From Paenibacillus sp. MBLB1832 (GTDB lineage: Bacteria; Bacillota; Bacilli; Paenibacillales; NBRC-103111), in the NCBI RefSeq assembly GCF_032271945.1, contig NZ_CP130319.1, forward strand, positions 4,049,001 through 4,113,000: a stretch of DNA of 64,000 nt, in the 5' to 3' direction. The first letter of the stretch is position 1, and each line of letters starts with the position of its first letter. The notes beneath the pieces are model-generated. The model did not search any database. It saw nothing but the letters and a program-made list of their open reading frames with translations, and was not told the origin of the DNA. This document shows positions 25,011-57,215 of the stretch, piece by piece. Both the position numbers and the translations under genes were made by a program.

Positions 25011-25644
25011 CACAGTCACTCCCCTTTTTAAGAAATTCGCTTCTGCAGAAACATTTTTTGCTATTCGGAAAAGATATTCTACGAACGCTCCCACAAATAA
25101 GTAAGACCATTGAAAAATCGTTATTCCAATTGCAGTCATTCAGAACGATTTTGTTGCCGCTCTCATTCTTTTCTTAGTTAACAGACTATAATAAAACTCT
25201 TTATTACCTCCTTATTAGAGTTTTTATCTTGTTGAGTTAAATTCTAGTTGCTTATCTTAATATTGGTCATTTTGATCCCAAAAGTATATGAATTAATTAT
25301 CCAAAATCATCGATGAAAACTCTAAAAATTGATCATAAGGCCAAAATAACCTTTTACATAATGGGATATTTTTATCAATTTGTACAAAAGAATTTACAGC
25401 GTTAACGAATAACATCTCTTAATTGTTTGGTGTGAAGCACCAAGAGTATACGGGAGGGCGGAGTGCCGGAGCTCGGAAAAGGAGAGAATGTGACAATACA
25501 GACAGCTCGATAATATACTACACAGGGAAAACCACTTTCCCCCAAAATATATAATGCGTTCATCTATTGGAGTGAACGCAGCTGCTAACTAAGGACAAAT
25601 GTCCTAAACATTTTGTTATTAATACCACATGGGTTAGTTTCTAT

Positions 25645-33406: not shown

Positions 33407-33563
33407 CAATCTCACTCACTTTCCTTCAAGAAATTCCGTTCTGCATAGGTCTTCCGCATCCCGGTACTGAAATAATAGTAGCGAATAGGTTCCATGCATA
33501 GATCTCATTTTTTTAGCTTATTATCAAAATTACAGATTGGATCAAACTGGTGATCAACCTAAA

Positions 33564-40018: not shown

Positions 40019-40957
40019 TTAACCAGAACAGTGAAGGTTAAAGAAACTGTCCTGAGCGAATCCGTTTGGGATCCTTATCCTTTTATTGCGCCTATCATGA
40101 CACCCTTGACGAAAAACTTCTGTTAAGAAGGGATATAACACAAGGATAGGCACGGTTGCTATCACAATAGCAGCAGACTTCACGATTTCCGACATATCTC
40201 GCCCCTTTATAGTGCCAAGGCTTGTAAGAAGATCATCCGTGTTACCCGTTACTAATATATTTCGTAATACAAGCTGAAGCGGATATAAGCTCGACTTTGT
40301 CAAATAGATGGACGCGTTAAACCATGAGTTCCAATGCCCCACACCATAATACAAAATCATAACGGCAATGATGGGCATGGATAGGGGGATCATAATCCGC
40401 ACCATAATCTTCATCTCGCTTGCACCGTCAATTCTGGCTGACTCCTCAAGTGCTTCCGGTATCGATTGAAAGTACGTTCGCATGATGATCAAATTATAGG
40501 TTCCAATCAGCCCTGGAAAGACCATGGAAATCCACGTATTCACGATCCCAAGTTGTTTCATGACCAAGTACGTGGGTATTAACCCTCCGCTGAAAAACAT
40601 CGTAATCACGATCATGATCATCAAGCTATTCCTCAGCATCAGCCCTCTTCTCGACAATGCATACGCTAACGTCGTAGTAAAAATAAGATTGAGAGACGTT
40701 CCCACAATCGTGTAAACAATGGTGTTCCGATAGCCTATGAGAATAGGCTTGTTATGCAGCACGGCATAGTATGCATCGAATTGCAAGCCTAACGGACGAT
40801 AAAGAATGTTGTTGTAACCAGCTAACTGTGATGGAACGCTAAGCGATGAAAAAATGATGTATAATAGCGGATAGCTCGCTGCAATCATGATGACAATTAG
40901 AATGCAGATGTTGACTATGTCGAACACTTTCTCAGCGACACTGCGATGGGTCTTCAT
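40019..40957 (-). CDS. Sugar ABC transporter permease, LplC type, with frameshifted C-terminus
   Basis: 312 aa; ATG at 40957 with AGGAG upstream, 10 bp after the LplB stop. CUT1 permease with six helices and an EAA loop (EESARIDGASEMKIMVRIMI). After VPILVLYPFL the frame leaves the family pattern and ends in about 30 unrelated residues (TEVFRQGCHDRRNKRIRIP and on). Removing one base near 40124 restores QKFFVKGVMIGAIKG and a stop at 40075, the standard tail. The defect is thus a one-base insertion in the last 16 codons. The channel may still assemble, or the base may be a sequencing error. Confidence 0.85.
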   Translation of the reverse strand: MKTHRSVAEKVFDIVNICILIVIMIAASYPLLYIIFSSLSVPSQLAGYNNILYRPLGLQFDAYYAVLHNKPILIGYRNTIVYTIVGTSLNLIFTTTLAYALSRRGLMLRNSLMIMIVITMFFSGGLIPTYLVMKQLGIVNTWISMVFPGLIGTYNLIIMRTYFQSIPEALEESARIDGASEMKIMVRIMIPLSMPIIAVMILYYGVGHWNSWFNASIYLTKSSLYPLQLVLRNILVTGNTDDLLTSLGTIKGRDMSEIVKSAAIVIATVPILVLYPFLTEVFRQGCHDRRNKRIRIPNGFAQDSFFNLHCSG

Positions 40958-40967
40958 ACTATCACTC

Positions 40968-41933
40968 CTAGAACAAACTAGATTCTGAATATTTTTTGCT
41001 AAGCTTGTTGGCGCTTAAGAGGAAGATAAAATTCACTGCGGAGTTAAAAAATCCGACTGCTGTTGCATAGCTGTAATTGGCTTCAATAATTCCTTTTCGA
41101 TACACAAAGGAAGAAATGACATCGGCTTTTTCATAAGTGGACGGCGAATAGAGCAAAATAACTTTCTCGAATCCCACATTCATCACAAACCCCATCCGTA
41201 AAATGAGCAAGATGATAATGGTCGGAAGCAATCCTGGTAGTGTGATGTGAATTAGCTGCTTCCACCGGCCTGCGCCATCTATTTTGGCTGCTTCATATAG
41301 GCTGGAATCAATACCGGTTAGCGCTGCAAGATAGATGATCGAGCCCCACCCGATTTCCTGCCAAATATCAGAGCCTACAAATATCGCGCGGAACCAATCG
41401 GCGTTCAGAAGCCAATTCTCACGAGGAACTCCCAGCACAGACAACACATCATTGAACAATCCTTGCTTTTGTGTAAAAGCAATAATCATTCCAGAAACGA
41501 CAACTACGGAAATAAAATGCGGCATGTAAGTGACTGTCTGCACAACCCGCTTAAAAACTTGATTTCTGACTTCATTAAGTAAGAGGGCTAGAATAATGGG
41601 GGCAGGAAAGCCAATAACAATGGAATAGAAGCTGATCACCAGTGTATTACGTAATATCCTTGTAAAATAATAGCTCTTGAAAAAGTTTACAAAATGCTCA
41701 AGTCCAATCCACGGACTTCCAAATACACCTTTGGAGGCAACAAACGATTTAAAAGCGATCGTAACTCCGAGCATCGGCCAATAATAGTAAATGATATAAT
41801 ACATAATTCCAGGCAGCGCGATAAGATATATCGCTTTATTCTTAATAATATCTCTGGTTAAACGTTTCAGTACGTTTACTTTGTTCCTGGGAAGAATGCT
41901 GCTCCCCATTTTTGACATTATGCTCTCATTCAT
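40968..41933 (-). CDS. Sugar ABC transporter permease, LplB type
   Basis: 321 aa from the ATG at 41933 (AAGGA 9-10 nt upstream; the upstream in-frame ATG at 41954 has no site). Six helices, LplB signatures TIAFKSFVASKGVFGSPWIG and LLNEVRNQVFKRVVQTVTYM, EAA loop SLYEAAKIDGAGRWKQLIH. First gene of the E operon on the minus strand (LplB, LplC, binding protein, GH95, regulator). A perfect palindrome lies 33-60 bp before its start. Confidence 0.92.
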   Translation of the reverse strand: MNESIMSKMGSSILPRNKVNVLKRLTRDIIKNKAIYLIALPGIMYYIIYYYWPMLGVTIAFKSFVASKGVFGSPWIGLEHFVNFFKSYYFTRILRNTLVISFYSIVIGFPAPIILALLLNEVRNQVFKRVVQTVTYMPHFISVVVVSGMIIAFTQKQGLFNDVLSVLGVPRENWLLNADWFRAIFVGSDIWQEIGWGSIIYLAALTGIDSSLYEAAKIDGAGRWKQLIHITLPGLLPTIIILLILRMGFVMNVGFEKVILLYSPSTYEKADVISSFVYRKGIIEANYSYATAVGFFNSAVNFIFLLSANKLSKKYSESSLF

Positions 41934-41965
41934 ATTTTCAAATCCTTTTCTCATGTATTTGTCCT

Positions 41966-41993
41966 GTGCTTTGCTCTCACTATAGCAAAGCAC
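41966..41993 (-). promoter_or_regulatory. Perfect palindrome over the candidate promoter of the E operon
   Basis: GTGCTTTGCT (41966-41975) and AGCAAAGCAC (41984-41993) are exact 10-bp arms around 8 nt. On the minus strand the spacer and arm contain TATAGT (41984-41979), a good -10 hexamer. Position and symmetry suggest a repressor operator, or alternatively a leader hairpin if transcription starts further upstream. Confidence 0.5.
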
Positions 41994-42273: not shown

Positions 42274-43872
42274 TTATTCACCCATAAATTGACTTGGGCT
42301 CATACCATAGTGCTCCCTGAACACCTTCACAAAGTAGCTTCTATTTTCGTACCCAAGCATTACTGAGACGCTTTCGACCGTTTGGTCTGGTCTTGAGAGG
42401 AGCTCTTTGGCCTTTTCCATTTTCATTCTTTTCACATATTCAATGAAGTTTTCCCCTGTTTCCTTTTTGAACAAGCGGCTAAAATAGCTGGCGTTCAGAT
42501 GCAGGTGCTCAGCTACCTCTTCCAAGCTCAGCTTCTGTTCAACCCGAAGCTGGACGTACTTCTGCGCCTTGACAATTTCCGTCTTTTTGCTCGTTTTTGA
42601 AATCCGGTCCATGATGTCGACAGCCTGTTGAAAGTAAAAACAGAGCCATTCCCTAAGCTCCTCCACGTCCCCGATATACCCAAGCTCATGCTGAACTCTC
42701 TCCATCGTATATTGGGGATTAAACTTTACTCTCATCATTAAATCCAGAATTAATTTATTCAAAAATTGCTTGACGAATTTGGGATGATACCGCTTCCGCG
42801 TTACCATCTCAATAAACGAGTCAACTAGCGTTGACACAGGCTCCGTAGAGGAAAGGAGAAGCCTATTGAGCTTTTCAGCATAATCAAAATACACTGCAAA
42901 TAATTCTTCTCCATCCTTTAGTGTCGGGAAAGGACTGTGAAGCCTTATGTAGGGTGCGCCCTGATCATAAAAGCATTGCTCTGCGTCAGACTGCAACCGC
43001 AATAACTGGTGACGAAGACCCTCTCGCGTACCCGTCACATCACCAACCAATGTAGATAACTTTAGCTTCAAAAACTGGGAAAGCTTCCGCTGAATCTGGG
43101 CAGTGATCTCCTCGATTCTGACCTCACATTCCTGCCGATGCTCCACATTGCAGGAGAATACCATATATACATAAGGCGAGAAACAGCCAAGAAACAATGC
43201 TTCCTCATTGGCATGCACAATCTCCTCAATAGCATTGCTAATGGCAAAGGAGAGCGTATTTTCATGCTTGTACCGCGATATGGCACCGACCATTTGGTTG
43301 AGACGCAAAACTACAGGTGTTACTGTGCCCTGACCCTTTACAAGTCCAAAAGACTCCAGCTCATTATGCCACAACGAATCTTCAATGCTCGAACCGGTGA
43401 GCAAATCACGCAGCCACTTCTCCTTCATAGGGAATTTGGCCTTATGTGCTTCATGGTGCAAGCGCTCTACTTCCTTTTGCAAATTTCGCTCTTGATCGAG
43501 CTGCTGCTTCACCTTGGCAAGAAGCTCGGCCATCTCATCGTCAACTTCCAAAGATTCCTTCAGCACATAATCCTGCACGCCGAGCTGTAAGGCTTGCTGC
43601 GCGAAACGAAAGTCATCATGACACGATAAAATTAAAAATTTCGTAAGGTGACCCTGTTCCTGTATGGTCTTAATTAGCTCTAGCCCATTCATCCCCGGCA
43701 TGCCGATATCGGTAATGACCAGTTCAGGAGTAAGCAGCTCGTATTGCTGCAGTGCCGATACGGGGGAATGAAAGGCCCCAGCAAGTACGAAACCATGATC
43801 CGCCCAGGGGAGACATTCCCTTAGGTAATCCAACACCGCCACATCATCATCCACGATAAAGACGTTATACAT
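42274..43872 (-). CDS. Response regulator, YesN type
   Basis: 532 aa; ATG at 43872 with AGGAGG lying inside the end of the kinase gene, 8-bp overlap. Receiver about 1-120 (FIVDDDVAVLDYLREC, phosphoacceptor Asp55 in LVITDIGMPG), a long coiled-coil and GGDEF-like middle part, AraC HTH about 430-532 (LSLEEVAEHLHLNASYFSRLF, QTVESVSVMLGYENRSYFVKV). Last gene of the GH5 operon. Its likely target is the direct repeat before the operon at 57300-57329. Confidence 0.92.
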   Translation of the reverse strand: MYNVFIVDDDVAVLDYLRECLPWADHGFVLAGAFHSPVSALQQYELLTPELVITDIGMPGMNGLELIKTIQEQGHLTKFLILSCHDDFRFAQQALQLGVQDYVLKESLEVDDEMAELLAKVKQQLDQERNLQKEVERLHHEAHKAKFPMKEKWLRDLLTGSSIEDSLWHNELESFGLVKGQGTVTPVVLRLNQMVGAISRYKHENTLSFAISNAIEEIVHANEEALFLGCFSPYVYMVFSCNVEHRQECEVRIEEITAQIQRKLSQFLKLKLSTLVGDVTGTREGLRHQLLRLQSDAEQCFYDQGAPYIRLHSPFPTLKDGEELFAVYFDYAEKLNRLLLSSTEPVSTLVDSFIEMVTRKRYHPKFVKQFLNKLILDLMMRVKFNPQYTMERVQHELGYIGDVEELREWLCFYFQQAVDIMDRISKTSKKTEIVKAQKYVQLRVEQKLSLEEVAEHLHLNASYFSRLFKKETGENFIEYVKRMKMEKAKELLSRPDQTVESVSVMLGYENRSYFVKVFREHYGMSPSQFMGE

Positions 43873-45718
43873 CGTCCCCCTCCTCCTTTCTTCCTTCGTG
43901 ATAGGGAAGCGTAATGGTCCATTTTAGTCCTTGCCCCGGAGCGCTTAGAACTGTCATTGAGCACATATCCCCGTATATGATGCGGAGACGCTCGAACACA
44001 TTTTTCAATCCGATCCCATTCAACCCCGTCTTCTCATTGGTAAGCCTGGACTCATTCAATGAATCCGTGAGCATATCCTGCAGCTTCTCAAGCTTATCTG
44101 CATCCATCCCTATGCCATCATCTTCCACCTGGAGATACAGCATCTCTCCCTGCTTCCAAGAATGAATCGCAATTACGCCCGAACGCTGCTGCAATCCGTG
44201 TATATATGCATTCTCGATTAATGGCTGAAGCGTTAATCTTGGGATGCTGCAAAGCAATGTATCAGATGCCAAATCGCTAGTGAAGGTAACGTGTTCATGA
44301 TGACGGAAATTCATGAGTTTGATATATTGGCTCACAATCTTAACTTCCTCGTGTAGGGGCAGAAACTCATTACTACGATTAATCGTCATTCGGAGCAAGG
44401 TGGACAGGGAGCCGATAATCATCCCGATCTCCCGCTCCCCCTTCATCATTACACGCAATCGGATGGAATTAAGCGTATTGAAGAGAAAGTGAGGATGAAT
44501 TTGCGCTTGAAGCAGCTCCAGCTCAGCCATTCTTTTGCGTGTCTGCTCTTGCTTGACCTGCTCAAGCATCTGCTTTATTCGATCTAGCATGGCATTAAGT
44601 GCGCTGCTAAGCTTAGCGATTTCATCCTTTTGCTTCAATTGCAAGCGTACGTCCAAATTCCCCGCCTCCACCTGCATGGCCATTCGAGCTAATTGGACGA
44701 TGGGTTTGGTGAACTGGCGGAGGATGTAAAACAGGGCGATGGAAAATAGGATAAAGAAGATAAATTGCACGGTGAAAATCTCGCTGAGCTTGCTGCTTAT
44801 TTTTCGAGTAATATCTTGTAGTGGTGTTATACTTATCATTCGCCAGTTCCCGTAGGACAAGGAATGGTTGACATAGATATAGTCCTGTCCCTTCCAGCTG
44901 GTTCTTCCGCGGGGCAAGCTCAAATCGAAGGAATCGGAAAGTGTAGTGCCCACCTGCTGTGTGTCCAGACCGGAAATGACTTGCCCCTTGGCATCCAATA
45001 GGATCAGCGTTTGGTCCTCCTGGTATTTACTAAAGATTTCGTGGAACTGCTTCTCCGACTTGCTCAACATAATATAAGCATTCGGTGTATTCGCATAGAG
45101 CTGAAAGCTTCGGATGATGGTTATGATATGCGGATCCTGCTTGCGCTCGGAAGGAACATAATTGGGCTGTCCACCGAAGAAGAACGTATGGTTTACCGGC
45201 AGCTTATGAAGGTCCTGAAACCAGGCTTCCTTGTAAATGAAAGACAAGTCGCTGGGGTACGTAGAGAAGTTGGTTAAATGGTCGCCTGTCGGCAGCAAAA
45301 TGGTCGCATAGGTTTTGCCGCCAAACAGGGTCAGCTGGTTCAGCTTCTCCACAACAGCCTGCGAGGCGTAGAATCGTTTGGTAGGTTTGGCGCTCTCGCC
45401 AGGCTCTGCTGTGTCCCATAAGACGCGAAGATTCGCCATCGTTGTTTGATCATATTGAATTTCGTTAAGTGTTTTCACCATATCGCTCACAATGCTGCCT
45501 ATGTACAGGTCAGACACCTCCATCGACTGCTCGGAGCGCGAATAGGCCTTGGCCAACAGCTCTTTATTAATATAAAAGTTTGTAAGAACAAGGATACCGA
45601 TCGATGGAATCAATAAACATAGTAACGACGCTGTGATCAGCTTCTGTCTCCAGCTTAGTGTGGAAGCCCTCAATCTGGCACCCCGTTTCTCATGAAAGAT
45701 GTAAGTAAAGTATATCAA
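43865..45718 (-). CDS. Sensor histidine kinase, YesM family
   Basis: About 617 aa if it starts with the TTG at 45718, whose TTGA overlaps the stop of the cohesin-SLH gene; there is no clear ribosome site, so coupling or a later start (TTG at 45673) is possible. Helix 1 about 25-47, extracellular sensor about 50-305, helix 2 about 312-332, HAMP to about 385, QIHPHFLFNTL with His410, and HATPase with QPLIENAYIHGL and DDGIGMD. It should pass the signal to the regulator that overlaps it. A kinase directly coupled to a surface-anchor gene suggests that sensing polysaccharide breakdown at the cell surface is part of the same programme. Confidence 0.9.
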   Translation of the reverse strand: MIYFTYIFHEKRGARLRASTLSWRQKLITASLLCLLIPSIGILVLTNFYINKELLAKAYSRSEQSMEVSDLYIGSIVSDMVKTLNEIQYDQTTMANLRVLWDTAEPGESAKPTKRFYASQAVVEKLNQLTLFGGKTYATILLPTGDHLTNFSTYPSDLSFIYKEAWFQDLHKLPVNHTFFFGGQPNYVPSERKQDPHIITIIRSFQLYANTPNAYIMLSKSEKQFHEIFSKYQEDQTLILLDAKGQVISGLDTQQVGTTLSDSFDLSLPRGRTSWKGQDYIYVNHSLSYGNWRMISITPLQDITRKISSKLSEIFTVQFIFFILFSIALFYILRQFTKPIVQLARMAMQVEAGNLDVRLQLKQKDEIAKLSSALNAMLDRIKQMLEQVKQEQTRKRMAELELLQAQIHPHFLFNTLNSIRLRVMMKGEREIGMIIGSLSTLLRMTINRSNEFLPLHEEVKIVSQYIKLMNFRHHEHVTFTSDLASDTLLCSIPRLTLQPLIENAYIHGLQQRSGVIAIHSWKQGEMLYLQVEDDGIGMDADKLEKLQDMLTDSLNESRLTNEKTGLNGIGLKNVFERLRIIYGDMCSMTVLSAPGQGLKWTITLPYHEGRKEEGDDV

Positions 45719-47469
45719 GAGTGCTCATGAAATGGAATGCGGTATAGTATCACAGCAGCCTGGGCCCTCGTAGCATAGGAACCTGGCTCAAGCTTGCCGT
45801 TCTCCATCCCTTGGATGATTCCGGAAGCATGAAGACTGGTTAATGCCTTTACAGCATAGCTGCTTATATGATCTAGGTCGGTAAAAGCAGAAACGGTTCC
45901 ATCTTGCTTAGAGACGATTCCCTTGCACTGCATCGCCCGATAGATGATTGCAGCCATCTCCTGCCTAGTAATGAATTCCTTCACGCCAAACCGAAGTTGG
46001 GAGTTGCCTTCCACGATGCCCAGTTCCTCGGCGCTTGCGATAGCGGGGTAGTACCATTCACCAGGAAGCACGTCCTCGAAGCGACTGATTGCTGAAGTGT
46101 CCATGAGATCGAAAGCGTCGATCACCATCTTGATAAATTGCGCCCGTGTTACATAGGACTGCGGCTGAAACTCCCGCTCCGATACCCCTTGAATGGTGCT
46201 TTGCAGAGCAAGCGCTTCGATGGCACTCCTGCCCCATTCCGCTTGGTTCAGATCGTCAAATAATGGTTTATCGTTATAGCTTACATAATATTTGCTGAAG
46301 TGCTTAAGTGTAGTTTCCATCCTGCTTGTAGCTTGGTTATATCGCGAGTTCTTAACAACCTCCAGCGTGCCATTGTCCGAGACATAATACACAACTAGCC
46401 TGTGGGGCTGCCATGCGTGCTTCCCTTGATAGGGCAGCTCCACCTTCACCTCTGCGCCGGCAAAGTCATGCAGTCGGCGGCCATCTGCAAGCAGAGTCAG
46501 ATCGATCAACGCATCACCGTCCCTCATTCTCTCAGAAAAACCCAAGGGAATGTCCGATGCGGTCAGCACCTCGATACCTAGCTCCATATGGCCAGGCTGG
46601 TTTCTTTGCAGCTCCCCCCAGAGCTTAGACGGAATCGTTACCGAGGCTAAGCCCGTCTCTACTCGCAGAGAGAGCCGCCATTTGTTGTCTCCTCCTAACG
46701 AATTCAACGGCAGCTGTACCTGTATGGACCTTGTTCCCTGCGATTGCCTTACCTCGACGACTACCTCGGATTGCGCGCTTGACTCCATAGCTTGCCTAAG
46801 CTTTTCGGGGTCCACCTGAACCTTTACTCTCCCTTGGGAATCCGCTGACCCGTCCGTCACGATCCGATGGGGTGTTACGCTGTGGGAATCGATTGGCAAC
46901 TCCCCTTGCGTCCCCCCGGTGCTATGGTCTTTTCCATTACCATTACCATTACCATTTTCATTCCCGTTACCTTTGTCTTCCTCAGCAGTGCCGGTTCCCA
47001 CGGTGATATCCGAAACCCGGAGATCTTCTTCGCCCACAGACGTGCCATTAGCCAGCTTCACCTTAATGGACTTGGTAAGACGAACATGCGTCTGGCGCTC
47101 CTGCAGTACCTTCAGTTTCAGTCGATATAACTCGTGATCCCCGGTAAGTCCAGCCTTGGCTCCTATGAAGGTGTGTGCGAGGATAATTTCATTACCTGTG
47201 TTCTGAAACACGGGAAATCCGCCATTCAACCTCAATTCGGTCCCTACATATTGCAGCGATTCCGGTTCATATGCAATACGAACCTCATTGGCGTAAAGCC
47301 CCTGAAGTCCCTTCCCTTCGACAGTAATTGTGATTGTGTCCCCTACCCGAACGGGCTGCGTGGAATAGGACAGACTTAGGCGATCCGCATCGGACTGGGC
47401 TAAGCCCGCCGTAGGCAAGAACCAAATCCCTGCAAGAATAAGTAGTAAGGATAGATATCGTATATTCAT
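45715..47469 (-). CDS. Cohesin-SLH cell-surface anchor protein
   Basis: 584 aa from the ATG at 47469 (GAGG upstream; the in-frame start at 47520 would put extra residues before the signal peptide). Signal peptide about 1-24 (TAGLA), a cohesin-type beta-sandwich about 28-155 (LSLSYSTQPVRVGDTITITV, EVRIAYEPESLQYVG, LAHTFIGAKAGLTG), an Asn-Gly repeat linker about 162-185, a beta-rich region about 190-405 common in Paenibacillus SLH proteins, and three SLH motifs about 410-584 (PQSYVTRAQFIKMVIDAF, VKEFITRQEMAAIIYRA, PGSYATRAQAAVILYR). SLH domains bind pyruvylated cell-wall polymer; a cohesin binds dockerins. The gene directly upstream codes for a GH5 enzyme with a dockerin, so this is its probable surface receptor, comparable in layout to single-cohesin anchors of clostridial cellulosomes. 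Confidence 0.82.
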   Translation of the reverse strand: MNIRYLSLLLILAGIWFLPTAGLAQSDADRLSLSYSTQPVRVGDTITITVEGKGLQGLYANEVRIAYEPESLQYVGTELRLNGGFPVFQNTGNEIILAHTFIGAKAGLTGDHELYRLKLKVLQERQTHVRLTKSIKVKLANGTSVGEEDLRVSDITVGTGTAEEDKGNGNENGNGNGNGKDHSTGGTQGELPIDSHSVTPHRIVTDGSADSQGRVKVQVDPEKLRQAMESSAQSEVVVEVRQSQGTRSIQVQLPLNSLGGDNKWRLSLRVETGLASVTIPSKLWGELQRNQPGHMELGIEVLTASDIPLGFSERMRDGDALIDLTLLADGRRLHDFAGAEVKVELPYQGKHAWQPHRLVVYYVSDNGTLEVVKNSRYNQATSRMETTLKHFSKYYVSYNDKPLFDDLNQAEWGRSAIEALALQSTIQGVSEREFQPQSYVTRAQFIKMVIDAFDLMDTSAISRFEDVLPGEWYYPAIASAEELGIVEGNSQLRFGVKEFITRQEMAAIIYRAMQCKGIVSKQDGTVSAFTDLDHISSYAVKALTSLHASGIIQGMENGKLEPGSYATRAQAAVILYRIPFHEHS

Positions 47470-47500
47470 GTAGGCCTCATCCCCCTGACAAATAGGAAGA

Positions 47501-47518
47501 GGAGGGGGTTCCCCCTCC
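47501..47518 (-). terminator. Perfect GC hairpin between the dockerin enzyme and the cohesin-SLH gene
   Basis: GGAGGGGG and CCCCCTCC are exact 8-bp arms around TT, 9 bp after the GH5 stop codon, without a T-tract. It is probably a processing or attenuation element that sets the ratio of enzyme to anchor. Confidence 0.5.
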
Positions 47519-47526
47519 ATTCGTCC

Positions 47527-50500
47527 CTATTCATGCAATATGCTTCGTGCTATTATGCTCAAATCTACAATATTAATAATTCCATCACGATTCACATCAC
47601 AAAACGCATAAGCATTCCAATCCGAATCTCTCGATGACTTGCCGTATCTTGCAGCCACCATACCCAGATCAGCGACATCGACCTTCTGGTCGCCGTTCAC
47701 ATCGCCCGGTATTCCAAGGTTAACCGATTCCTCGAAACTTCGCAGGGCAGCCAATAGGACCTCAGCCGCTTGATCCACTTCTGCCTGCGTAAGGCGCGCA
47801 TCATTCCGTACAGCGATGGCAGCGTCGATAGCAACTTGCAATACAACCTTCGAACCAGCAGGATATGTCCCACTCGTCACTCCCTCCAATGCAGTATCAT
47901 GAATTTGCTGCGCTCTCGCCACGGCAGCGCTTAACACTTCCCGATTTACGGCAATAATCTGAATGGATATCGAGTTTGATGCCGAGGTAAGTATTCTGCC
48001 AAGATCATCGGAGAGCTTGACAGCTTCTAGCCTCCACGTATCTGTCTGATTAGCCTCAGGCGACTTAGCCGTTACGTTCACGTTAAACATAGGACCGTCC
48101 GATGTAATCGCGTTGGCTCCGCCTTCACTAGCTGCGATAAGCCTGAGTGTGCCCGGAGATGTCTCTGTGGTTTCCAGCAGTCCGAAGCCCGCTCGCGCAC
48201 TGGTAACCGAATCGATATGGAATAGGTCAGGATTGTACTTCAGCGTCATATCGGCGGCCAGAACCTTGCCGATCTCGCTTGTTGTCACATTCGAAATCCC
48301 GACAGTCAAACTCGCCGATTGCCATGCTTGCACCGAAGCCGGCCCATCCAGTGATACGGTTGTTTCCGGACGCTCCAAGGATGCTGCGACGAAGTCATCA
48401 ATCCGCGCGGCCTGATTGGCAATACGGAATCCCGGCTTGCCCGAGAGCAGCGGCGGACCTGAGCTGTTGCCGAAGAAGTTGTTGCTGTCATTCACATCGT
48501 ATACGAGCATATCATCCACGTAACCTTTAATATGTGTCCCTTGGACGACCAATCTGAGATCATACCACAGCTTCAACGAATAGGGATACGCATAAACCGG
48601 CGCTGCCAGCTCCATCGGCGCAGAACCATTGACTACTTTACTCAATCCAATCTTGGGCGCATTGCTGATTCTTAGCATGTAATAGCTTTGCCCATCGTCC
48701 GAAGCTCTGGCGATAATGCCGGGCAAGGCGTTGTTCGTTGACGAAGCGATCGGGCTTACCCGAGCTCTAACCTCATAGTCGCTCCCGGAGGAGCCTGTGA
48801 CCGCTACGATGTTCCCGCTGGTGCTTGTTCTCTCCAGCACCTTCCCATTCCCATCCGCCACGATGGAGAAGTGGCTGCTCATAGGCACAGCCAAAGCTCC
48901 GGAGAACGCCTTCCACTGCGGTTGAATCACGCTATTCTCGAATTCATCTGCGAATAAGATCGCACCCATCGGCACAGCTTGCTTCGTGACAATCCGAATC
49001 GCATATTCCCTGATCGTCGTCCCGTCTTCTGCAGTGACAATCGCCTTTGCCCGTCCTTCTCCATTGACGATCGTCGCATGCTCCAGCCGTACCTTTGCTA
49101 AGGGATCTTCGGGAATGGCCTCAAGAATCGTGACCTCCTTCGTTCGAGAGGATACGGTAACCGTGTATTCGTATTTGCTTGGCTCGAGTATGACATTGGC
49201 ATTCTTCATACCGATCGAACCGTTCGGTACAATAGACAGCTTGAGCGAGCTCAGGTTTGCACTGCTGCCGATCGGGCGAGCATAAATAGAATAATAGCTG
49301 GCATACCCTTCCGGGGTTTCCGCGCCAAGCACAAGTTGCTTATACGTTGAAGGATTTTCGAACACCAGCTGCGTGGAAGCCGGTGCCGCATACGCCGTCG
49401 GATACTGAGCAGGCTGATACGTTGCCGCTGTTACCGGAACGGAAGATACGGTCGTATTCACCTTCATATAATAATGGCCAACTGCTGGGTCAAATCCCGG
49501 TAATGGAGCATTATTGATTTGAACAACTCCAAGCTTGGGCGCAATAGGATATACCCTGATATTGTCATAGTTGACCTTGGCATACTGGGATCGTAGCCCA
49601 TACCTGCCTGAAGTGAAGGTGCCGTTGACCGCTTCCACCACCTTGACTCCGTTCACGTATCCTGTTAATACCTTCCCAACCGCCTCGAACCGGAGTTGGT
49701 ACCAGGAACCAGGGTCGATTGTGAAACTCAAATTGACTGCACTCAGATCCGTTGTTGTGCCATTGTTCCGAATACCGATGACCGCTTGGTTGGTATTGGT
49801 CGTCAGATTACGCTCCAAACGGAAGAAGTAATTGTTATTCGGATTCGAGCCTCTCAGCACGAGTCCAGGGTTATAGCGGTTGTAGGTTCCCATGCTTGCC
49901 AAATCTGCTTGGACCATGCCCTCAATACCGTAGTCGCTCGGAGTCTCCAAATTAAGAAACGCCAGCTCTACATTCGTTCCGTTCGTACGCTGGTTTTGAA
50001 CGAAGGTTTCCCCGTTCTCTGTCTTCACGCTCCATTGGGAGGGGGTGTAAGCATGGCTCGTCATCTCCCAGCCATACGTCGTTTCCGTTACCGTTCCGAA
50101 AGAGTTCGAATACAAGGCGTTGGCAAAGATACGAACCCCATCTACCGACAAGGGAACTGCCGGGTTGGATGCCTCCGTCACCGTCACCTTAACGTAACGG
50201 GCTTCCGTATTGTAGGAATCCGTTCCTGCTCCTAACGGCTTGAAGCTGTATGTATTTTGGGTGACCGTTCGGTAACTGACCTTATCCATACTCGTTTCTA
50301 TGATGTATTTGTAGCGGGTCTGGTTACCGTCAGACCATTGAATCGTTGAGCCTGACAAGAGAAACCGGCGTCCAAGATCAATCTCAAACGACTGAGGGTA
50401 TGTATTACTCCCAGCAATCCACGGGGTCCCCGGCCCTGTATCGGTTAAGCCTGCCGTCGAAAATCCGGATGCCGTACTGCTCGTCATGGCCGCCTTGCCC

Positions 50501-51747
50501 GCCGATACAACCATGTCACCTGCCCTAGTGCCCTCGCCAAGAATGTCCTCCAGCAGCACATTAAATACCCTGGTCGTTCTCTTGTATACCTGCCAATTGC
50601 CGTTATCATCCCATACTGACACAGCGAAGCCTTTGCGAATCGCGTCCTCCGCTGTGACCCGGTAATATTCACGGGTAGCAGCATCCAGTGGCTGACCGCT
50701 GTTGTTTCTAGCGTTGCTCGGACCGAACTCTCCAACATAGACGGGGATGTTATATTTCCGGGAAAAATCCGTGTAGATCGCACTGCTCCACTCGATCGCA
50801 CCAGCCGCATCCCCCCTGTATACATGGTAAGTGCCCATGATATACGGGTCCTGACCCAATCCATCGGGAAGATCTTGCCGATTCTTAAAGGTCTTGGGCA
50901 AATATTCGCCCGAGTTATAGTTAATGCCGCCGAAGAGGAGAATACGGTTCTTATGAACTGCGACCCCGTCAAACGTTATATTACGTATATGAGCATACAG
51001 TTGTTGATTCATCTTCACAACCGATTCAATCGCCTTCTGCTCCTTAATCACTCCCTTCGCGTAGGCATCCCGGGTCTCCGCCGTGTCGGGACAGGTGGTG
51101 GAGGATCCTGGATAACAAGCGCGGTTTTTGTCAAAATAATTTTGCGGCTCATTGATCAGCTCAAACACGAGGGTAGGGGGTGCATTCTTGAATAACTCGG
51201 CGATTCCGGACCAAATATGAGTCAGCTTGGTCATATTGGCATCAAACTTGGCGTTGCCAATGACATCCTCCTGCTCATCCCAGACCCAATCCTCATGATG
51301 CGTATTAACCACAACAATGACGGGCTGTTTTCCTTCCAGCACCCGCTGAGGATTTACCGTATACAGAATGTATTCGACAATCCGTTTGTAGGTCATTACT
51401 TCCGGATGGTTCGGATTCACAATGCCGTTCTCATCGGTACGCCCAGGGAATTTGACATGATTCGCCCAATTCATAGGAATTCTCAGGTTGGTGTACCCGG
51501 CGGCCACCATGTCATCAACTACGAGCTTGACTGATTCATAGTCATTCTTCTGCATGTCCTTCAATTCGAAGGTATTTCCAATATTGCTGCCCCGTCCCAT
51601 ATAACGGACCATGTCCCCAGCCGTAATATCCGATGGTGCTGCGTTTGCGGCATGGACGAACAGCATAGACACGATAGTTAATACCATGGAGACTGACAAC
51701 GTGGTTGGAATGGCATTCAGCAGCTTTTTTAACAGCTGTTGATACAT
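47527..51747 (-). CDS. Secreted multidomain GH5 enzyme with internal cohesin-like domain and C-terminal dockerin
   Basis: 1406 aa from the ATG at 51747 (AGGAGG 8 nt upstream; the ATG two codons earlier is too close). Signal peptide about 1-37, GH5 barrel to about 405 (acid/base Glu200 in LINEPQN, nucleophile Glu340 in VGEFGPS), an F5/8C (CBM32-like) domain about 410-550, a LamG/CBM66-like domain about 555-740, cadherin-like sandwiches about 740-925, a second LamG-like domain to about 1120, a cohesin-like domain about 1122-1265 (VSLDGPASVQAWQSASLTV, MTLKYNPDLFHIDSV), a FIVAR helix region about 1267-1345 and a type I dockerin about 1347-1406. The dockerin has two Ca-binding loops, DVNGDQKVDVAD and DVNRDGIINIVD. 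The enzyme degrades a beta-glycan, and its dockerin probably docks onto the cohesin-SLH protein coded next. Having both cohesin-like and dockerin modules in one chain is odd. Confidence 0.85.
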   Translation of the reverse strand: MYQQLLKKLLNAIPTTLSVSMVLTIVSMLFVHAANAAPSDITAGDMVRYMGRGSNIGNTFELKDMQKNDYESVKLVVDDMVAAGYTNLRIPMNWANHVKFPGRTDENGIVNPNHPEVMTYKRIVEYILYTVNPQRVLEGKQPVIVVVNTHHEDWVWDEQEDVIGNAKFDANMTKLTHIWSGIAELFKNAPPTLVFELINEPQNYFDKNRACYPGSSTTCPDTAETRDAYAKGVIKEQKAIESVVKMNQQLYAHIRNITFDGVAVHKNRILLFGGINYNSGEYLPKTFKNRQDLPDGLGQDPYIMGTYHVYRGDAAGAIEWSSAIYTDFSRKYNIPVYVGEFGPSNARNNSGQPLDAATREYYRVTAEDAIRKGFAVSVWDDNGNWQVYKRTTRVFNVLLEDILGEGTRAGDMVVSAGKAAMTSSTASGFSTAGLTDTGPGTPWIAGSNTYPQSFEIDLGRRFLLSGSTIQWSDGNQTRYKYIIETSMDKVSYRTVTQNTYSFKPLGAGTDSYNTEARYVKVTVTEASNPAVPLSVDGVRIFANALYSNSFGTVTETTYGWEMTSHAYTPSQWSVKTENGETFVQNQRTNGTNVELAFLNLETPSDYGIEGMVQADLASMGTYNRYNPGLVLRGSNPNNNYFFRLERNLTTNTNQAVIGIRNNGTTTDLSAVNLSFTIDPGSWYQLRFEAVGKVLTGYVNGVKVVEAVNGTFTSGRYGLRSQYAKVNYDNIRVYPIAPKLGVVQINNAPLPGFDPAVGHYYMKVNTTVSSVPVTAATYQPAQYPTAYAAPASTQLVFENPSTYKQLVLGAETPEGYASYYSIYARPIGSSANLSSLKLSIVPNGSIGMKNANVILEPSKYEYTVTVSSRTKEVTILEAIPEDPLAKVRLEHATIVNGEGRAKAIVTAEDGTTIREYAIRIVTKQAVPMGAILFADEFENSVIQPQWKAFSGALAVPMSSHFSIVADGNGKVLERTSTSGNIVAVTGSSGSDYEVRARVSPIASSTNNALPGIIARASDDGQSYYMLRISNAPKIGLSKVVNGSAPMELAAPVYAYPYSLKLWYDLRLVVQGTHIKGYVDDMLVYDVNDSNNFFGNSSGPPLLSGKPGFRIANQAARIDDFVAASLERPETTVSLDGPASVQAWQSASLTVGISNVTTSEIGKVLAADMTLKYNPDLFHIDSVTSARAGFGLLETTETSPGTLRLIAASEGGANAITSDGPMFNVNVTAKSPEANQTDTWRLEAVKLSDDLGRILTSASNSISIQIIAVNREVLSAAVARAQQIHDTALEGVTSGTYPAGSKVVLQVAIDAAIAVRNDARLTQAEVDQAAEVLLAALRSFEESVNLGIPGDVNGDQKVDVADLGMVAARYGKSSRDSDWNAYAFCDVNRDGIINIVDLSIIARSILHE

Positions 51748-51769
51748 GTACATCTCCTCCTTACATTTG

Positions 51770-51864: not shown

Positions 51865-53706
51865 TTACTCAGTAATGATCAACTGAGGTCGCAATGAAGC
51901 GTTCTCTTTGCTGTTGAATTCCACTCGATTTTCATCCGATTGAGACTTCTTGATCACCAGAGATGCGCTGGTACCTTGCGATTTAATAAAACCGGTTACA
52001 TCGAATTCGTAGTACTTCTCCGTGCCATTCACGGTGAAGGTGCCAAATTGAGATGGATTCACATAGGGTTGGTTATTCCAGGTTAGCGAATCCTCTCCCC
52101 AGTTGCTATAGGCGCCGAATACGGACAGCATAGTATCGCTGGTTGCGGTAACATTCTTACCGTAAACCCTCAGCTTGGCGCTCGTGATCAGATTCTTGTT
52201 CAGGTCGCCGACAGGGAATTTGAGAAAGATGGCACGATCATAATCCGCATTCGGATCATCCTTTACTTCTAGCTTGGCAGCAGTTCCATAATTGGTATTG
52301 GCATTGATTCCGCCCCGGATAAAGGCATCGTTCGTCGGATTCAGGCTGACCTTGGGTCTCAATCCATTCCCAAACACATCATCAAGAAGACTGTTGAAGG
52401 TATTGGATGACCGCTTATACACCGTATAATCACCGTTATCGTCCCATACCGCTGCCGGCATATTGCGCGCGATTGATTCGTTGGAAATGAATTGATAGAG
52501 CGCCTCCCTTTCCGGATCGATCGGCTCATTCTTATTCGTAGAGAAGCCGGAGCCCGCTACTCCCTTCAGTTCATACCAATAGGTTTGACCAAATTCCCCC
52601 AAGAAGACAGGGATATTATATTTTTGGGAAAAATCCTCATACACCTGCTGCATCTTGTCAATGATCGCCGCTCTCCAGTCGTAGCTGTCATAGCTCTGTA
52701 CAACACACTCGCCGTTTACCATCGCTTTCACTTTCTTGGTGAGAGGCTGATAGAGATGGTAGGTTGCCATCATGTATTTATCCGTGCCCGACCCATCTGG
52801 CAAATCAGTTGCAAGTGCGTACGTCTTCGCCAAATATTCTCCGGCGTTGTAATGAATACCGCCGAACATGATGACACGCTTCTCATGAACCTTTTGCCCG
52901 GTGCTTGATGTATAATTGCGGATCGTGCTGTACACTTGTTTATTCATATTAACAACTGTTTGAATGGCAAGGCTTTCCCTAGCAGCTTCTGCATCGTACA
53001 GACTTTGAGGCGAAGGGCAGGAGCAACTAGGCTGACCGCTGACACATTTGGTGTTTGCCGCCATGATGCCATGGGGTTCGTTGAAAATCTCGAAGACGAG
53101 CGTACTTGGCGCGTTAGCGAACATTTTCGAAATTCCTTGCCAGATCGTGTTCAACTTGCTGATGTTGCTTGCGTAGTTGGAACCGTTAATCAAGTCCCCT
53201 TCTTCATCGTGAAACCAAAACTCGTGATGCGTATTCACAATCACGACGATTTCCCTTAGCCCTTGACTGGCACGCTGTGGATTTACAGTATTAAGAACAT
53301 AATTGACCAAATTCTTGTACGTTACGACATCAGGGCTCGTTTCAATGATAGTGCCATTCGAGGTAATTCGGTCAGGATATAGCCGGTTCCCATTGCTGTC
53401 GACATCTTTGGGAACATCCCATCGAATCGGCATACGGATCGTAGTGTAACCCGCTCCAATGAAGGCATCCAGCACCGCTTTGGCAGAGGTATAGTCCCGG
53501 GGTTGGGCAGCGTATTGATTAAACATTTCAAAGGTGTTTCCAAGATTCGATCCACGTCCCATAAAAGAAGCCATTTCTGCCGCCGAGATGGCTGCCGGTG
53601 CGGCACTTGCCTGATTCATCCCAGCAGGAGCAGCAAGAATGGTGCATGCCAATGTGACGGATGCAAGAAGTTTACCGCATTTGCTTGACCAAGCTCTCAA
53701 GTTCAT
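51865..53706 (-). CDS. Secreted GH5 endo-glycanase with C-terminal CBM96/DNRLRE-like domain
   Basis: 613 aa from the ATG at 53706, which has AGGAGG 8 nt upstream; the longer frame (53748) would bury the signal peptide. Signal peptide about 1-36, GH5 barrel about 38-445 with GRGSNLGNTFEMF, acid/base Glu210 in IFNEPHG and nucleophile Glu371 in FLGEFGQ, then a CBM96 sandwich about 455-613 (NDAFIRGG, IFLKFPVGDLNKN, LTWNNQPYVNP). Four Cys in a short CVSGQPSCSC loop may form disulphides. Full-length paralogue of the gene at 6986. It lacks a dockerin, so unlike its neighbour it is probably released. A cre-like site lies 49 bp upstream. Confidence 0.88.
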   Translation of the reverse strand: MNLRAWSSKCGKLLASVTLACTILAAPAGMNQASAAPAAISAAEMASFMGRGSNLGNTFEMFNQYAAQPRDYTSAKAVLDAFIGAGYTTIRMPIRWDVPKDVDSNGNRLYPDRITSNGTIIETSPDVVTYKNLVNYVLNTVNPQRASQGLREIVVIVNTHHEFWFHDEEGDLINGSNYASNISKLNTIWQGISKMFANAPSTLVFEIFNEPHGIMAANTKCVSGQPSCSCPSPQSLYDAEAARESLAIQTVVNMNKQVYSTIRNYTSSTGQKVHEKRVIMFGGIHYNAGEYLAKTYALATDLPDGSGTDKYMMATYHLYQPLTKKVKAMVNGECVVQSYDSYDWRAAIIDKMQQVYEDFSQKYNIPVFLGEFGQTYWYELKGVAGSGFSTNKNEPIDPEREALYQFISNESIARNMPAAVWDDNGDYTVYKRSSNTFNSLLDDVFGNGLRPKVSLNPTNDAFIRGGINANTNYGTAAKLEVKDDPNADYDRAIFLKFPVGDLNKNLITSAKLRVYGKNVTATSDTMLSVFGAYSNWGEDSLTWNNQPYVNPSQFGTFTVNGTEKYYEFDVTGFIKSQGTSASLVIKKSQSDENRVEFNSKENASLRPQLIITE

Positions 53707-53754
53707 CGTTAATTCCTCCTCATTATTGAAGGTAAAGTGTGATTTCAAACTCTT

Positions 53755-54005: not shown

Positions 54006-54040
54006 CCAGATGGATGCCATAGGCGACAGCATCCATCTGG
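54006..54040 (-). terminator. Strong hairpin between binding-protein and GH5 genes
   Basis: CCAGATGGATGC and GCATCCATCTGG are exact 12-bp arms around 11 nt, 11 bp after the binding-protein stop, without a T-tract. It likely stabilises the transporter mRNA or partly terminates before the GH5 genes. Confidence 0.6.
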
Positions 54041-54051
54041 TCTGGGCAAAC

Positions 54052-55389
54052 CTATTTTTTGTTGGATTCAATAATTTTGCTTATGTTTGTTTTCATTGCA
54101 TCCACAGTCGCATCAAGCTTGGTTTCTCCAAGTAAATATTTTTCAGCCTGGGATAGGAATGCCTTCTCTACCTCACCGCTGTAGGCAGGAGGGACAACCG
54201 GGTTAGGAAGCTTCGTCACTTTGTGCACGTGAATCAGAGAGTCCTTATCGATTTTGTCAGGGGATTTAGTCGTATTGATAATCTGCTCCAGCTCCTTGGC
54301 TACGTCCGCATTCTTCCAAGCAGATAATTGTCCTGTTAAAGTCATACCTTCCGTAGTTAAGAAACGAATGAACTGGTATGCCTCTTGCTTATGCTGTGAT
54401 TTCGAGGAGATTACCAGCGGGTCCGCTCCACCGAAAGAATAGGGCTCATCGCCTTTATTGTTAGTTGGCCATGGGGCAAATGCAGAAACGAAGGTCGCTG
54501 GAATCTTATCCGTACCACCCGCTTCCGTAATCATCCAAGGACCGGTAGGCAGCATTGCCGCTTTGCCCTGGAAGTACTGATCACGATAAGGGATCTTCTG
54601 CGAAACGACATCAATATACGGGGGAGCCGATTTATCTACTTGCTCCATATTATACCGAAGCTCCATGGAGGCTTTAAGCAGCGGGTTATCCCTGTCGAAG
54701 GCCGATCCGTCATCCGTCAATATATTCTGGTTCACAGGGGTGCTGTATTTCTTCAGCAGCATATAGTCCTTCCAAGTGTGAAAGAAAGTGCCATATTGCT
54801 TGCTTGGTCCTTCTCCCTTGGTAAGCTTTTTGGCATATTCCCTGAACTCATCCCAAGTCCAGCTCGAGGGTACCGGCAATCCCGCAGCGTCCAGTTGAGC
54901 CTTGTTTAACAGGACGAACCATGGTCCGAACTTTCCCGGCAGCGAGTATCGCTGGCCCCCTACCTTGATTTGCTCCGCCTTATAGATATCCTCGTACTTT
55001 ACTCCCTCTTTCTTCAGATACTCATCCAAAGGCTCGAGCATACCGTTGGTAGCCCGCTGGGCAAACGCAGGCACGGCGTTTAACGAGAACACATCGAAGG
55101 TATCTCCCGAAGCGTACAGAACATCCATCTTCTTCATGGATTCATTCGAATCATTCTCTACAACGGTTTCATACTTGACCTTAATATTCGGATATTTCTT
55201 CTCGAACGCCTCAATAGCTGGCTTGTATACCTCAGGCTTAGCCCAGTACAGAAAGCGGATCGTTACGGGGTTGGCCTTGCCGGCCTCCACAGTTGTTGGT
55301 GTGGACTTCACATCTTTTTCTCCACAGCCCGTAAGAACGGTACCCAGAGCCAGGACGGATGCCAGTGCGCTAATTACTGTTTTTTTCAT
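54052..55389 (-). CDS. Extracellular sugar-binding lipoprotein, MalE/family 1 type
   Basis: 445 aa; ATG at 55389 with GGGAGG upstream. Lipobox LTGC (Cys22), then a family 1 solute-binding fold: TIRFLYWAKPEVYKPAIEAF, KKYPNIKVKYE, AKLTKGEGPSKQYG, PTGPWMITEAGGTDK, SFGGADPLVISSKSQHKQEA. It is shorter and of a different class from the three LplA-type lipoproteins in the window. Receptor of the MalF/MalG pair that precedes it in the operon. Its decayed paralogue lies at 9058-10133. Confidence 0.92.
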   Translation of the reverse strand: MKKTVISALASVLALGTVLTGCGEKDVKSTPTTVEAGKANPVTIRFLYWAKPEVYKPAIEAFEKKYPNIKVKYETVVENDSNESMKKMDVLYASGDTFDVFSLNAVPAFAQRATNGMLEPLDEYLKKEGVKYEDIYKAEQIKVGGQRYSLPGKFGPWFVLLNKAQLDAAGLPVPSSWTWDEFREYAKKLTKGEGPSKQYGTFFHTWKDYMLLKKYSTPVNQNILTDDGSAFDRDNPLLKASMELRYNMEQVDKSAPPYIDVVSQKIPYRDQYFQGKAAMLPTGPWMITEAGGTDKIPATFVSAFAPWPTNNKGDEPYSFGGADPLVISSKSQHKQEAYQFIRFLTTEGMTLTGQLSAWKNADVAKELEQIINTTKSPDKIDKDSLIHVHKVTKLPNPVVPPAYSGEVEKAFLSQAEKYLLGETKLDATVDAMKTNISKIIESNKK

Positions 55390-55428
55390 TTTTGTTTGCC
55401 TCCCTGTTTGTGTATATTTATATATCGG

Positions 55429-56262
55429 TTATCCCTTCACTCCGCCTAAGGCTACACCCTCGAGCACATGCTTCTGTCCAAGGATAAAGATCAGGACCAA
55501 AGGAATAATCGCTGAAACCGTTCCCGCCATGATTAATGAGAAGTACACTCCGCTCTCCGAGGCGAACTTATGAATGCCCAGCTGGATTGTCTCCAGCTCC
55601 TCGGACCTAATGAAAACAAGTGGATGCGCATAGTCGTTCCAAGACCAGATAAAGCGTAGTATGGCATAAGTGGCGAGAGCAGGCCGCACCAACGGCAAAG
55701 CAATGCCAAGGAAGATTTGGAAATGCCCGGCTCCGTCCATTCGGGCAGCGTCGATATAATCTTTGTGAAGCCCCAAGAAAAACTGCCGTAGCATGAATGT
55801 GCCCAGGGCACTCAGAGAACCTAGCAGGATTAAACCCAAGTGTGTATCGTAGAGCTTGAGATACTTAAATATGATAAACTGGGGGACCAGAATCGAATGG
55901 GACGGAATCATAAATGTGGCTAGAACAATCAGGAACATCGTGCTTTTGCCACGAAATTCAATATGAGAAAACGCATATGCTGCCATACTAGAAACCAGAA
56001 CGGACAGCAGGGTTGTTAACACTGTTACCTTCACCGAATTCCAGTAAAAGAGGGCAAAAGGGTTCTCACCGAACCAAACCTCGGAATAGTTCTCAACAAA
56101 ACGCCAGGTATGAGGAATCCACTCAATGGGATAAGTAAATACATCTATTTCACGTTTCATAGAGGCTGAGATCATCCACAGAAACGGCAGCAGGAAGATC
56201 AGGCCCACTAGCAGCATCACGGCAGTCAACACAATTTTGCTTATATTTATCTCTCTCTTCAT
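55429..56262 (-). CDS. Sugar ABC transporter permease, MalG/LacG type
   Basis: 277-aa CUT1 permease with six helices and an EAA loop at about 180-200 (DYIDAARMDGAGHFQIFLGI), ending with GQKHVLEGVALGGVKG, the family's usual tail. ATG at 56262 with GGGAG upstream; 23 bp after the MalF stop. Forms the channel for the lipoprotein coded 39 bp downstream. Confidence 0.92.
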   Translation of the reverse strand: MKREINISKIVLTAVMLLVGLIFLLPFLWMISASMKREIDVFTYPIEWIPHTWRFVENYSEVWFGENPFALFYWNSVKVTVLTTLLSVLVSSMAAYAFSHIEFRGKSTMFLIVLATFMIPSHSILVPQFIIFKYLKLYDTHLGLILLGSLSALGTFMLRQFFLGLHKDYIDAARMDGAGHFQIFLGIALPLVRPALATYAILRFIWSWNDYAHPLVFIRSEELETIQLGIHKFASESGVYFSLIMAGTVSAIIPLVLIFILGQKHVLEGVALGGVKG

Positions 56263-56285
56263 ATTACTTCTCCCACCCTACCAAA

Positions 56286-57215
56286 CTAGTAATTAACCCA
56301 CTTCTTCTGCCCATAAATTTGTACAACCGTAATCAGGAGCACACAACCGAACAACACCCAAGCCATTGATGACGCATAGCCTGTCTTGAGACTCTCGAAG
56401 GCTGTCGAGTATAAATACAAGGTTACTACCGATGTCGATTCTGAAGGCCCCCCATTCGTCAATACCTTAATGATGTCAAATGACTTAAATGAACTGATCA
56501 GGCCGGTAACGAGCAAGAAAAAGGTCGTAGGCGACACAAGCGGGAAAGTGATGCTCTTAAACTTGCGAACCGCTCCAGCCCCATCCAGCTCGGCTGATTC
56601 ATAAAGTTCCTTCGGGATCGCCTGCAGCGCTGCCATATAGATAATCATACAGAACCCTACGCCTACCCACACCATAATTATCATGACCGATGGAAGCGCA
56701 TAATGGATATCAGCTAGCCACTTCGGTGGATCCGTGATCCCGATTCCTCTCAAGAATTGATTGATCGGACCATAAGACGGGTGAAACAGCAACTGGAACA
56801 CAATCGCCACGGCAACGATACTTGAGATGTACGGCATGAAGAAGATGACCTTCATGACATTCTTGAAGTAAACGAATTTATCGATAATGACTGCCAGCAG
56901 TAACGCCAGTACCATCTGCACGGGAACGACTACGAGCAACTTCAGATTGTTCATTAGCGACTCCAGAAAAACCTGATCGTCAAGAAGCATTGCATAATTT
57001 TTAACACCGACAAACTTTATTTTGTCTATACCCGAGATGAAGCTCCACTCCGTAAAGCTTAGTAACAAAGAAATGATTGTAGGAATTACTGTGAAAATGA
57101 GTAAACCTATCATCATAGGGGCAACGAAGGTATATCCGTGCAAATTTTCATAATTCTTCTTCTGCTTGACCTTCTTTGCTGAAATTTCCTGGTATGGCAT
57201 TGTTTGTACCCTCAT
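56286..57215 (-). CDS. Sugar ABC transporter permease, MalF/LacF type
   Basis: 309 aa; ATG at 57215 with GGAGGG upstream. Six helices (GYTFVAPMMIGLLIFTVIP first), EAA loop KELYESAELDGAGAVRKFK, and DIIKVLTNGGPSESTSVVTL, which is typical of LacF/UgpA proteins. First gene of the F operon. No ATPase gene is present, as for the other importers here. Confidence 0.92.
   Translation of the reverse strand: MRVQTMPYQEISAKKVKQKKNYENLHGYTFVAPMMIGLLIFTVIPTIISLLLSFTEWSFISGIDKIKFVGVKNYAMLLDDQVFLESLMNNLKLLVVVPVQMVLALLLAVIIDKFVYFKNVMKVIFFMPYISSIVAVAIVFQLLFHPSYGPINQFLRGIGITDPPKWLADIHYALPSVMIIMVWVGVGFCMIIYMAALQAIPKELYESAELDGAGAVRKFKSITFPLVSPTTFFLLVTGLISSFKSFDIIKVLTNGGPSESTSVVTLYLYSTAFESLKTGYASSMAWVLFGCVLLITVVQIYGQKKWVNY

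Follow-up and report, generated by a model that had tools for sequence, protein, structure and literature searches.

The window analysed here is a 64,000-nucleotide stretch of the genome of Paenibacillus sp. MBLB1832 (positions 4049001–4113000 of its 5.85-Mb single contig). It contains two adjacent genes that a reading made from the letters alone (hereafter the sequence-only reading) had described as a minimal, self-contained pair for holding one enzyme on the cell wall, namely an enzyme of glycoside hydrolase (GH) family 5 that ends in a dockerin and an anchor with one cohesin and three SLH motifs. Both open reading frames (ORFs) were found where it had placed them: the enzyme at 47527..51753 (1408 amino acids; ORF list and Pfam) and the anchor at 45715..47520 (601 amino acids; ORF list). 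They lie on the minus strand, as do all of their domains described below, and as called they share one frame with 6 nt between them. Translation of the anchor may start at an internal ATG at 47469, and the residue numbers that had been given for the anchor roughly match this start rather than the ORF as called.

According to Pfam, the enzyme consists of GH5, F5/8-C, ConA-like (3keto-disac_hyd), cadherin-like, cohesin and dockerin domains, in that order. The GH5 domain (Pfam Cellulase, residues 62–382, 50608..51570, E 1.1e-17) contains FELINEP and VYVGEFG, which we take to be its catalytic motifs. The type I dockerin at the C-terminus (residues 1349–1407, 47533..47709; Dockerin_1 at residues 1349–1406, E 3.7e-9) has the two loops that had been noticed before, DVNGDQKVDVAD and DVNRDGIINIVD; calcium would presumably be needed for its binding. 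The sequence-only reading had proposed profile searches of both proteins, and these matched cohesin and dockerin as expected but also found a second cohesin, on the enzyme. This X82-like cohesin (CohE, residues 1131–1269, 47947..48363) is recognised by Pfam (residues 1133–1250, E 4.8e-10, above the cut-off), by our own profile and by a PDB profile match. Between it and the dockerin lies a FIVAR-type three-helix spacer (residues 1270–1347, 47713..47946), detected by our own profile and as helices in the model; Pfam FIVAR gave no match to the spacer of this enzyme at 0.01. CohE and the spacer had been overlooked, and with both on the enzyme the description of the pair as minimal is not supported.

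Together, CohE, the spacer and the dockerin make up a single conserved cassette. When it was compared with PDB sequences through a 15-row alignment profile, the best match of the FIVAR-dockerin half was Clostridium perfringens NagH (2jnk/2ozn, E 1.4e-31, both modules covered), and the best matches of the CohE half were C. perfringens cohesins (2vo8, 5.5e-13; NagJ 2jh2, 2.5e-12; 2ozn_A, 3.6e-12; also 2o4e). The title of the 2ozn record is that of a cohesin-dockerin complex of NagJ and NagH. By homology, the two halves of the cassette correspond to the two partners of this one solved complex, the NagJ cohesin and the NagH FIVAR-dockerin. The predicted structure of the cassette has a predicted local distance difference test score (pLDDT) of 95.2 and a predicted template modelling score (pTM) of 0.79. 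The modelled CohE fits 2vo8 with a template modelling score of 0.90 (target-normalised), and FIVAR-dockerin as one body gave only a loose fit on 2ozn_B, with a root-mean-square deviation (rmsd) of 10.8.

The presence of both partners on one chain, together with a pTM that leaves their relative placement partly defined, is what might be seen if CohE and the dockerin of the same molecule bound each other, an arrangement that would work as a latch or protect during secretion and would open only at the anchor. We consider such a closed monomer rather improbable. Judging from the model, the spacer and short linkers would keep CohE and the dockerin apart, the linker between them is 2–10 residues long in 20 of the 24 cassettes in which no FIVAR was detected, and the homologous complex 2ozn joins two separate proteins.

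In the anchor, Pfam names a cohesin and three SLH motifs (residues 413–598, 45727..46284, E 3.2e-26), with an unnamed stretch between them; the middle region that is conserved among anchors (residues 218–412, 46285..46869) has no Pfam match. SLH motifs attach proteins to the cell wall. The anchor cohesin (CohA, residues 47–175, 46996..47382) is supported by our own profile and by its predicted fold, and its Pfam match (E 7e-5, 23.5 bits compared with 40.2 for CohE) is slightly below the cut-off of 24.1. The mean pLDDT of its blocks is 84–96 for most of the domain and 72–76 in the last 26 residues. The sequence-only reading had staked its case on a cohesin fold in this protein, and that fold is indeed predicted: the best structural match of the CohA model is 2vo8, a cohesin of C. 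perfringens (Z 15.7, rmsd 2.7, 130 residues), and among the best 50 rows of the structure search the top 41 are cohesins (Z 13.4–15.7), the remaining rows reaching at most 12.0.

CohE and CohA are two distinct kinds of cohesin. In a tree built by a quick method from 150 CohE and 36 CohA sequences after deduplication (132 columns), one branch with a support of 99 separates all CohE from all CohA, and the label changes only once, compared with a mean of 33 changes in shuffles. Finer points of the tree are unsafe because the columns are few and some branches, that of the window CohA among them, are long. At one alignment position, 93% of CohE have D and 91% of CohA have E; we take this position to be Asp39 of the C. 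thermocellum cohesin.

Since both ORFs are in one frame, the dockerin and CohA could be folded as one read-through chain. The prediction (246 residues, 58 further alignment rows, of which the dockerin row L093 runs beyond the dockerin) gave a pLDDT of 82.7 and a pTM of 0.75; the 55 of 246 residues under a pLDDT of 70 are chiefly those of the linker and the signal peptide. As CohA makes up approximately 135 of the 246 residues (about 55%), a pTM of about 0.5–0.6 would be expected if the dockerin were not fixed, and therefore we read 0.75 as docking. This suggests that the dockerin is confidently placed on CohA, and it makes display of the enzyme on the wall through this contact likely. Of the earlier proposal, the wall-display pair of an enzyme with a dockerin and an adjacent SLH anchor with one cohesin is supported, the one-chain prediction being consistent with docking, and the minimal two-gene unit is not.

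A search for other dockerins in the genome, also proposed by the sequence-only reading, showed that the pair is one of nine. At an E-value of 0.001, Pfam found 6 dockerins and 18 cohesins in the whole genome. Profiles made from the genome's own copies raised the number of dockerins to 9, a figure that is a count of aligned copies and not an independent search, because the same copies seeded the profiles. All nine dockerin proteins have CohE and eight have FIVAR (none in L016, two in L015). A CohA-SLH gene lies downstream of each of the nine cassette genes, immediately in eight cases and with one gene between in L019. The parts carried by the nine proteins differ (GH5, GH2, CBM9, an RG-lyase sheet domain, a beta-helix and a heparinase-like part), and for the L015 and L019 proteins Pfam names binding domains and no catalytic domain. 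A multi-cohesin scaffoldin was not found: the 18 cohesin places lie in 18 separate open frames at the Pfam threshold, at which weaker cohesins could escape. A lone weak cohesin (22.2 bits, below the cut-off) accompanies Big_13 in L023:3638-5197, an ORF with no SLH or dockerin by Pfam. With nine pairs in the genome and a cassette spread through the order (see below), the idea of a unique two-gene system was rejected.

A separate anchor gene for every cassette of this genome would suit an arrangement of dedicated display pairs, in which the dockerin binds the neighbouring CohA alone, CohE is a leftover or an unrelated binder and each enzyme stands alone on the wall. The diversity of the dockerins bears on this alternative. 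Those adjacent to an anchor are more diverse, chiefly at columns 14 and 18, presumably the recognition positions of type I dockerins. Column 14 is not G in 13/32 anchor-adjacent dockerins and in 12/118 others (p 0.0002; 0.007 without this genome), with p-values of 0.0016, 0.08 and 0.24 after clustering at 80%, 70% and 60%. The greater diversity at this column is suggestive of dedicated pairs, and it also hints that dockerins may work in a private and a pooled mode.

Divergence was compared in 32 enzyme-anchor pairs (31 adjacent pairs and L019), species kinship being controlled solely via the other terms. Rank correlations of distances were 0.52 for dockerin and CohA, 0.54 for CohE and CohA, 0.38 for dockerin and CohE and 0.12 for dockerin and SLH; the respective partial correlations were 0.40, 0.39, 0.15 and −0.06. 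In these pairs, dockerin divergence follows CohA and not the SLH part of the anchor.

Outside this genome, the cassette is common in the order. Dockerin_1 was found in 74 and Cohesin in 85 of the 104 genomes of the family. The cassette profile matched 221/392 genomes of the order at 1e-10, counting partial matches, and 128/392 at 1e-30, namely 63 genomes of the window's family and 65 of other families. At 1e-30, a phylum sample of 398 genomes gave no match besides the source genome (0 of 397 others); the order was sparsely represented in this sample, and its listed members were also without a match.

Three relatives (G036, G051 and G030) were chosen from the family Dockerin_1 search, two of them already known to hold cassettes. 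Of their 80 Pfam dockerins, 71 (46/50, 13/16 and 12/14, respectively) have a cohesin not more than 800 bp away towards the N-terminus. Unpaired cohesin places number 8 (in at most 7 ORFs) in G036, 15 in G051 and 10 in G030, and the latter two counts mean that few anchors per cassette are not a general rule. In another genome, G042, ten cassette ORFs lie within one 39-kb stretch (L034-L035), nine of them on the same strand. CohE is also present in 177/184 pooled ORF rows with a cassette-type dockerin, a set in which duplicates were kept and many loci were drawn from the cassette search; the seven rows without it include three that come from a single split gene and two from viral contigs. At least three dockerin-like loci (L054, L055 and L056) were seen on IMG/VR viral contigs. 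Relatives also have another type of pair (L024, L025, L028, L029 and L032), in which a Dockerin_1 protein, carrying Big_5 in L032, lies beside an ORF with two cohesin stretches, seen by Pfam in L032 and by our own profiles in the other four; two-cohesin frames in G051 and G036 also hold SLH motifs.

Non-catalytic adaptors that carry the cassette are also found. L064:7893-9923 of P. validus has the order CohE-FIVAR-dockerin, fn3, CohE-FIVAR-dockerin, and the proteins of L089:7656-8819 and L091:7668-8840 (approximately 390 amino acids) carry one cassette after about 110 residues, with a weak Big_2 match under the cut-off in the N-terminal part of the latter. All three lack a catalytic domain by Pfam, and their genes come directly after anchor genes. 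Such proteins would be easiest to explain if CohE and the dockerin had different partners, CohE receiving another dockerin, and they are our best indirect support for chains. Together with the retention of CohE in nearly all dockerin proteins and the 46 cassettes of G036 against its 8 unpaired cohesin places, they speak against dedicated pairs, which we regard as unlikely.

We therefore consider it probable that the two genes form a wall-display unit in which the dockerin sits on the CohA-SLH anchor and CohE is left as a receptor for other cassette dockerins. The anchor would attach to the wall via its three SLH motifs and display a single cohesin, and the C-terminal dockerin of the enzyme would bind it, bringing GH5 to the surface close to the ABC importer. 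CohE, at the far end of the spacer, would be free to take the dockerin of another cassette molecule, and enzymes could be added head to tail with no dedicated scaffoldin. Such putative chain growth through CohE is plausible. Each of the nine loci here has its own anchor, and in cassette-rich relatives few anchors would serve many enzymes. On a wider scale, it is possible, and we say so tentatively, that one order has a scaffoldin-free analogue of the cellulosome: self-adaptor enzymes would chain head to tail from CohA-SLH anchors, both at private-anchor loci, with a diverged dockerin recognition helix, and in pooled clusters, where the dockerin would follow a shared consensus and few anchors would be accompanied by extenders made of the cassette only.

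Several observations weigh against a display unit that extends through CohE. The docking was read from the overall pTM of a single prediction, and the cassette model is compatible with a fold-back as well as with an open rod. CohE follows CohA (partial correlation 0.39) about as closely as the dockerin does. Within this genome (8 pairs), the correlation is 0.09 for dockerin and CohA compared with 0.64 for CohE and CohA and 0.73 for CohA and SLH, so one-to-one pairing is unsupported and insulated dockerin-CohA pairs were rejected here. On visual inspection, five of the nine dockerins have a degenerate first calcium loop. In the split anchor of L022, the cohesin (8373-8801) and the SLH part (8776-10140) are in different frames, owing either to an assembly error or to a broken gene. 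Finally, unpaired cohesins are nearly as numerous as cassettes in G051 and G030; for this reason we slightly lowered our estimate for the favoured reading and raised that for dedicated pairs.

The surroundings of the pair agree with the sugar-ABC context and YesM/YesN-like pair described earlier. By Pfam, the anchor is followed on the minus strand by a YesM-like sensor kinase (43865..45718; the called ORF shares 4 nt with that of the anchor) and a YesN-like response regulator (42274..43872, Response_reg and AraC-type HTH), and two further permeases of the minus-strand run lie at 40019-41993. On the other side of the enzyme, also on the minus strand, are a GH5-CBM96 enzyme without a cassette (51865..53748) and a solute-binding protein (SBP_bac_1, 54052..55389), the latter part of a stretch of ABC permeases and solute-binding protein at 54052-57215 in the same, putatively operonic, gene run. 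The locus is of the Gram-positive polysaccharide-utilisation type, with ABC importer parts, solute-binding protein, carbohydrate-active enzyme and two-component regulator together. A terminator-like hairpin of 15 pairs (54006-54040) separates the solute-binding protein gene from the GH5 genes. Elsewhere in the window, two large heparinase II/III proteins (20286-25139 and 28700-33415) have fn3 and three CBM96 stretches, and in neither was cohesin, dockerin or SLH matched at 0.001.

A stem-loop on the minus strand, GGAGGGG-GAAC-CCCCTCC (47501..47518), lies in the interval from the stop codon of the enzyme to the ATG at 47469 where the anchor may start; it does not exceed shuffled versions of its region in strength (z −0.64). 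Stems are visible at 8/8 enzyme-anchor junctions folded from this genome (L019 left out). As a special enzyme-anchor signal, the hairpin was rejected: the mean z of the 33 cassette ends that precede an anchor was −2.88, not different from the value for 121 other cassette ends (−3.21; p 0.60) and weakly different from that for 75 control ORF ends (−1.91; p 0.03).

The earlier statement that no system of exactly this layout had been described must be corrected, since the layout is known in outline from one species. According to a 2024 survey (PMC11557425), P. guangzhouensis has 35 cohesin proteins, 28 of them with a single dockerin-cohesin pair and, in many of these, a GH domain, as well as five SLH anchors, a set termed architecturally distinct from conventional cellulosomes. 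As here, its chains have one cohesin and one dockerin, often with an N-terminal GH, and its single-cohesin SLH anchors are separate; where it has 28 such proteins and five anchors, the present genome has nine of each, at separate loci. In the survey's section on these proteins, neither FIVAR nor kinship with X82 nor growth of chains is mentioned. Its search required that one protein carry at least two cohesins; this genome has no such protein at the Pfam level, and surveys of that kind would pass over others like it. For P. guangzhouensis, the same survey raised the possibility that anchors and CohE gather dockerin enzymes of other bacteria; we think this very unlikely here, as the genome's own chains supply suitable dockerins, 9/9 with a cohesin.

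The closest solved relatives of both halves of the cassette, 2ozn among them, belong to the C. perfringens X82/FIVAR-dockerin system, which shares with ours the X82-type cohesin and the FIVAR-dockerin tandem. Single cohesins are carried by its enzymes too, and GH31 proteins with one cohesin and one dockerin are reported from C. perfringens and Akkermansia (PMC12997984). In C. perfringens, unlike here, cohesin and dockerin are mostly on different enzymes that join pairwise; one GH31 has both modules (PMC12997984), and in our case both are on one chain and an SLH anchor is added. Clostridial cellulosomes also have enzyme-borne dockerins and an SLH-cohesin surface anchor, but of the 18 places in this genome where Pfam recognises a cohesin, no two share an ORF. 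In ChiW, the SLH motifs are said to be on the enzyme chain itself. Like the SLH-bearing Paenibacillus enzymes XynA of JDR-2 (PMC2838879) and ChiW (PMC5132251), the enzyme would be held on the wall by SLH; in XynA these motifs belong to the enzyme chain (PMC2838879), whereas here they are joined to it through a putative cohesin-dockerin contact. Paenibacillaceae complexes with neither cohesin nor dockerin are other systems (PMC6823336, PMC6794216).

No paper on an order-wide cassette system was found in searches of the open-licence PMC literature; as far as these show, what is new is the spread of the system, its kinship with FIVAR and X82 proteins, the presence of an anchor at each locus and the existence of adaptors. 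We regard the two genes as a real wall-display pair inside a wider, partly described cohesin-dockerin system. Should these dockerins take as partners the anchor as well as cohesins on other enzymes, multi-enzyme complexes could be built on the surface without any scaffoldin, in a group that is not usually searched for cellulosomes. The nine natural cassette-anchor pairs of this one genome offer a test set for the evolution of cohesin-dockerin specificity.

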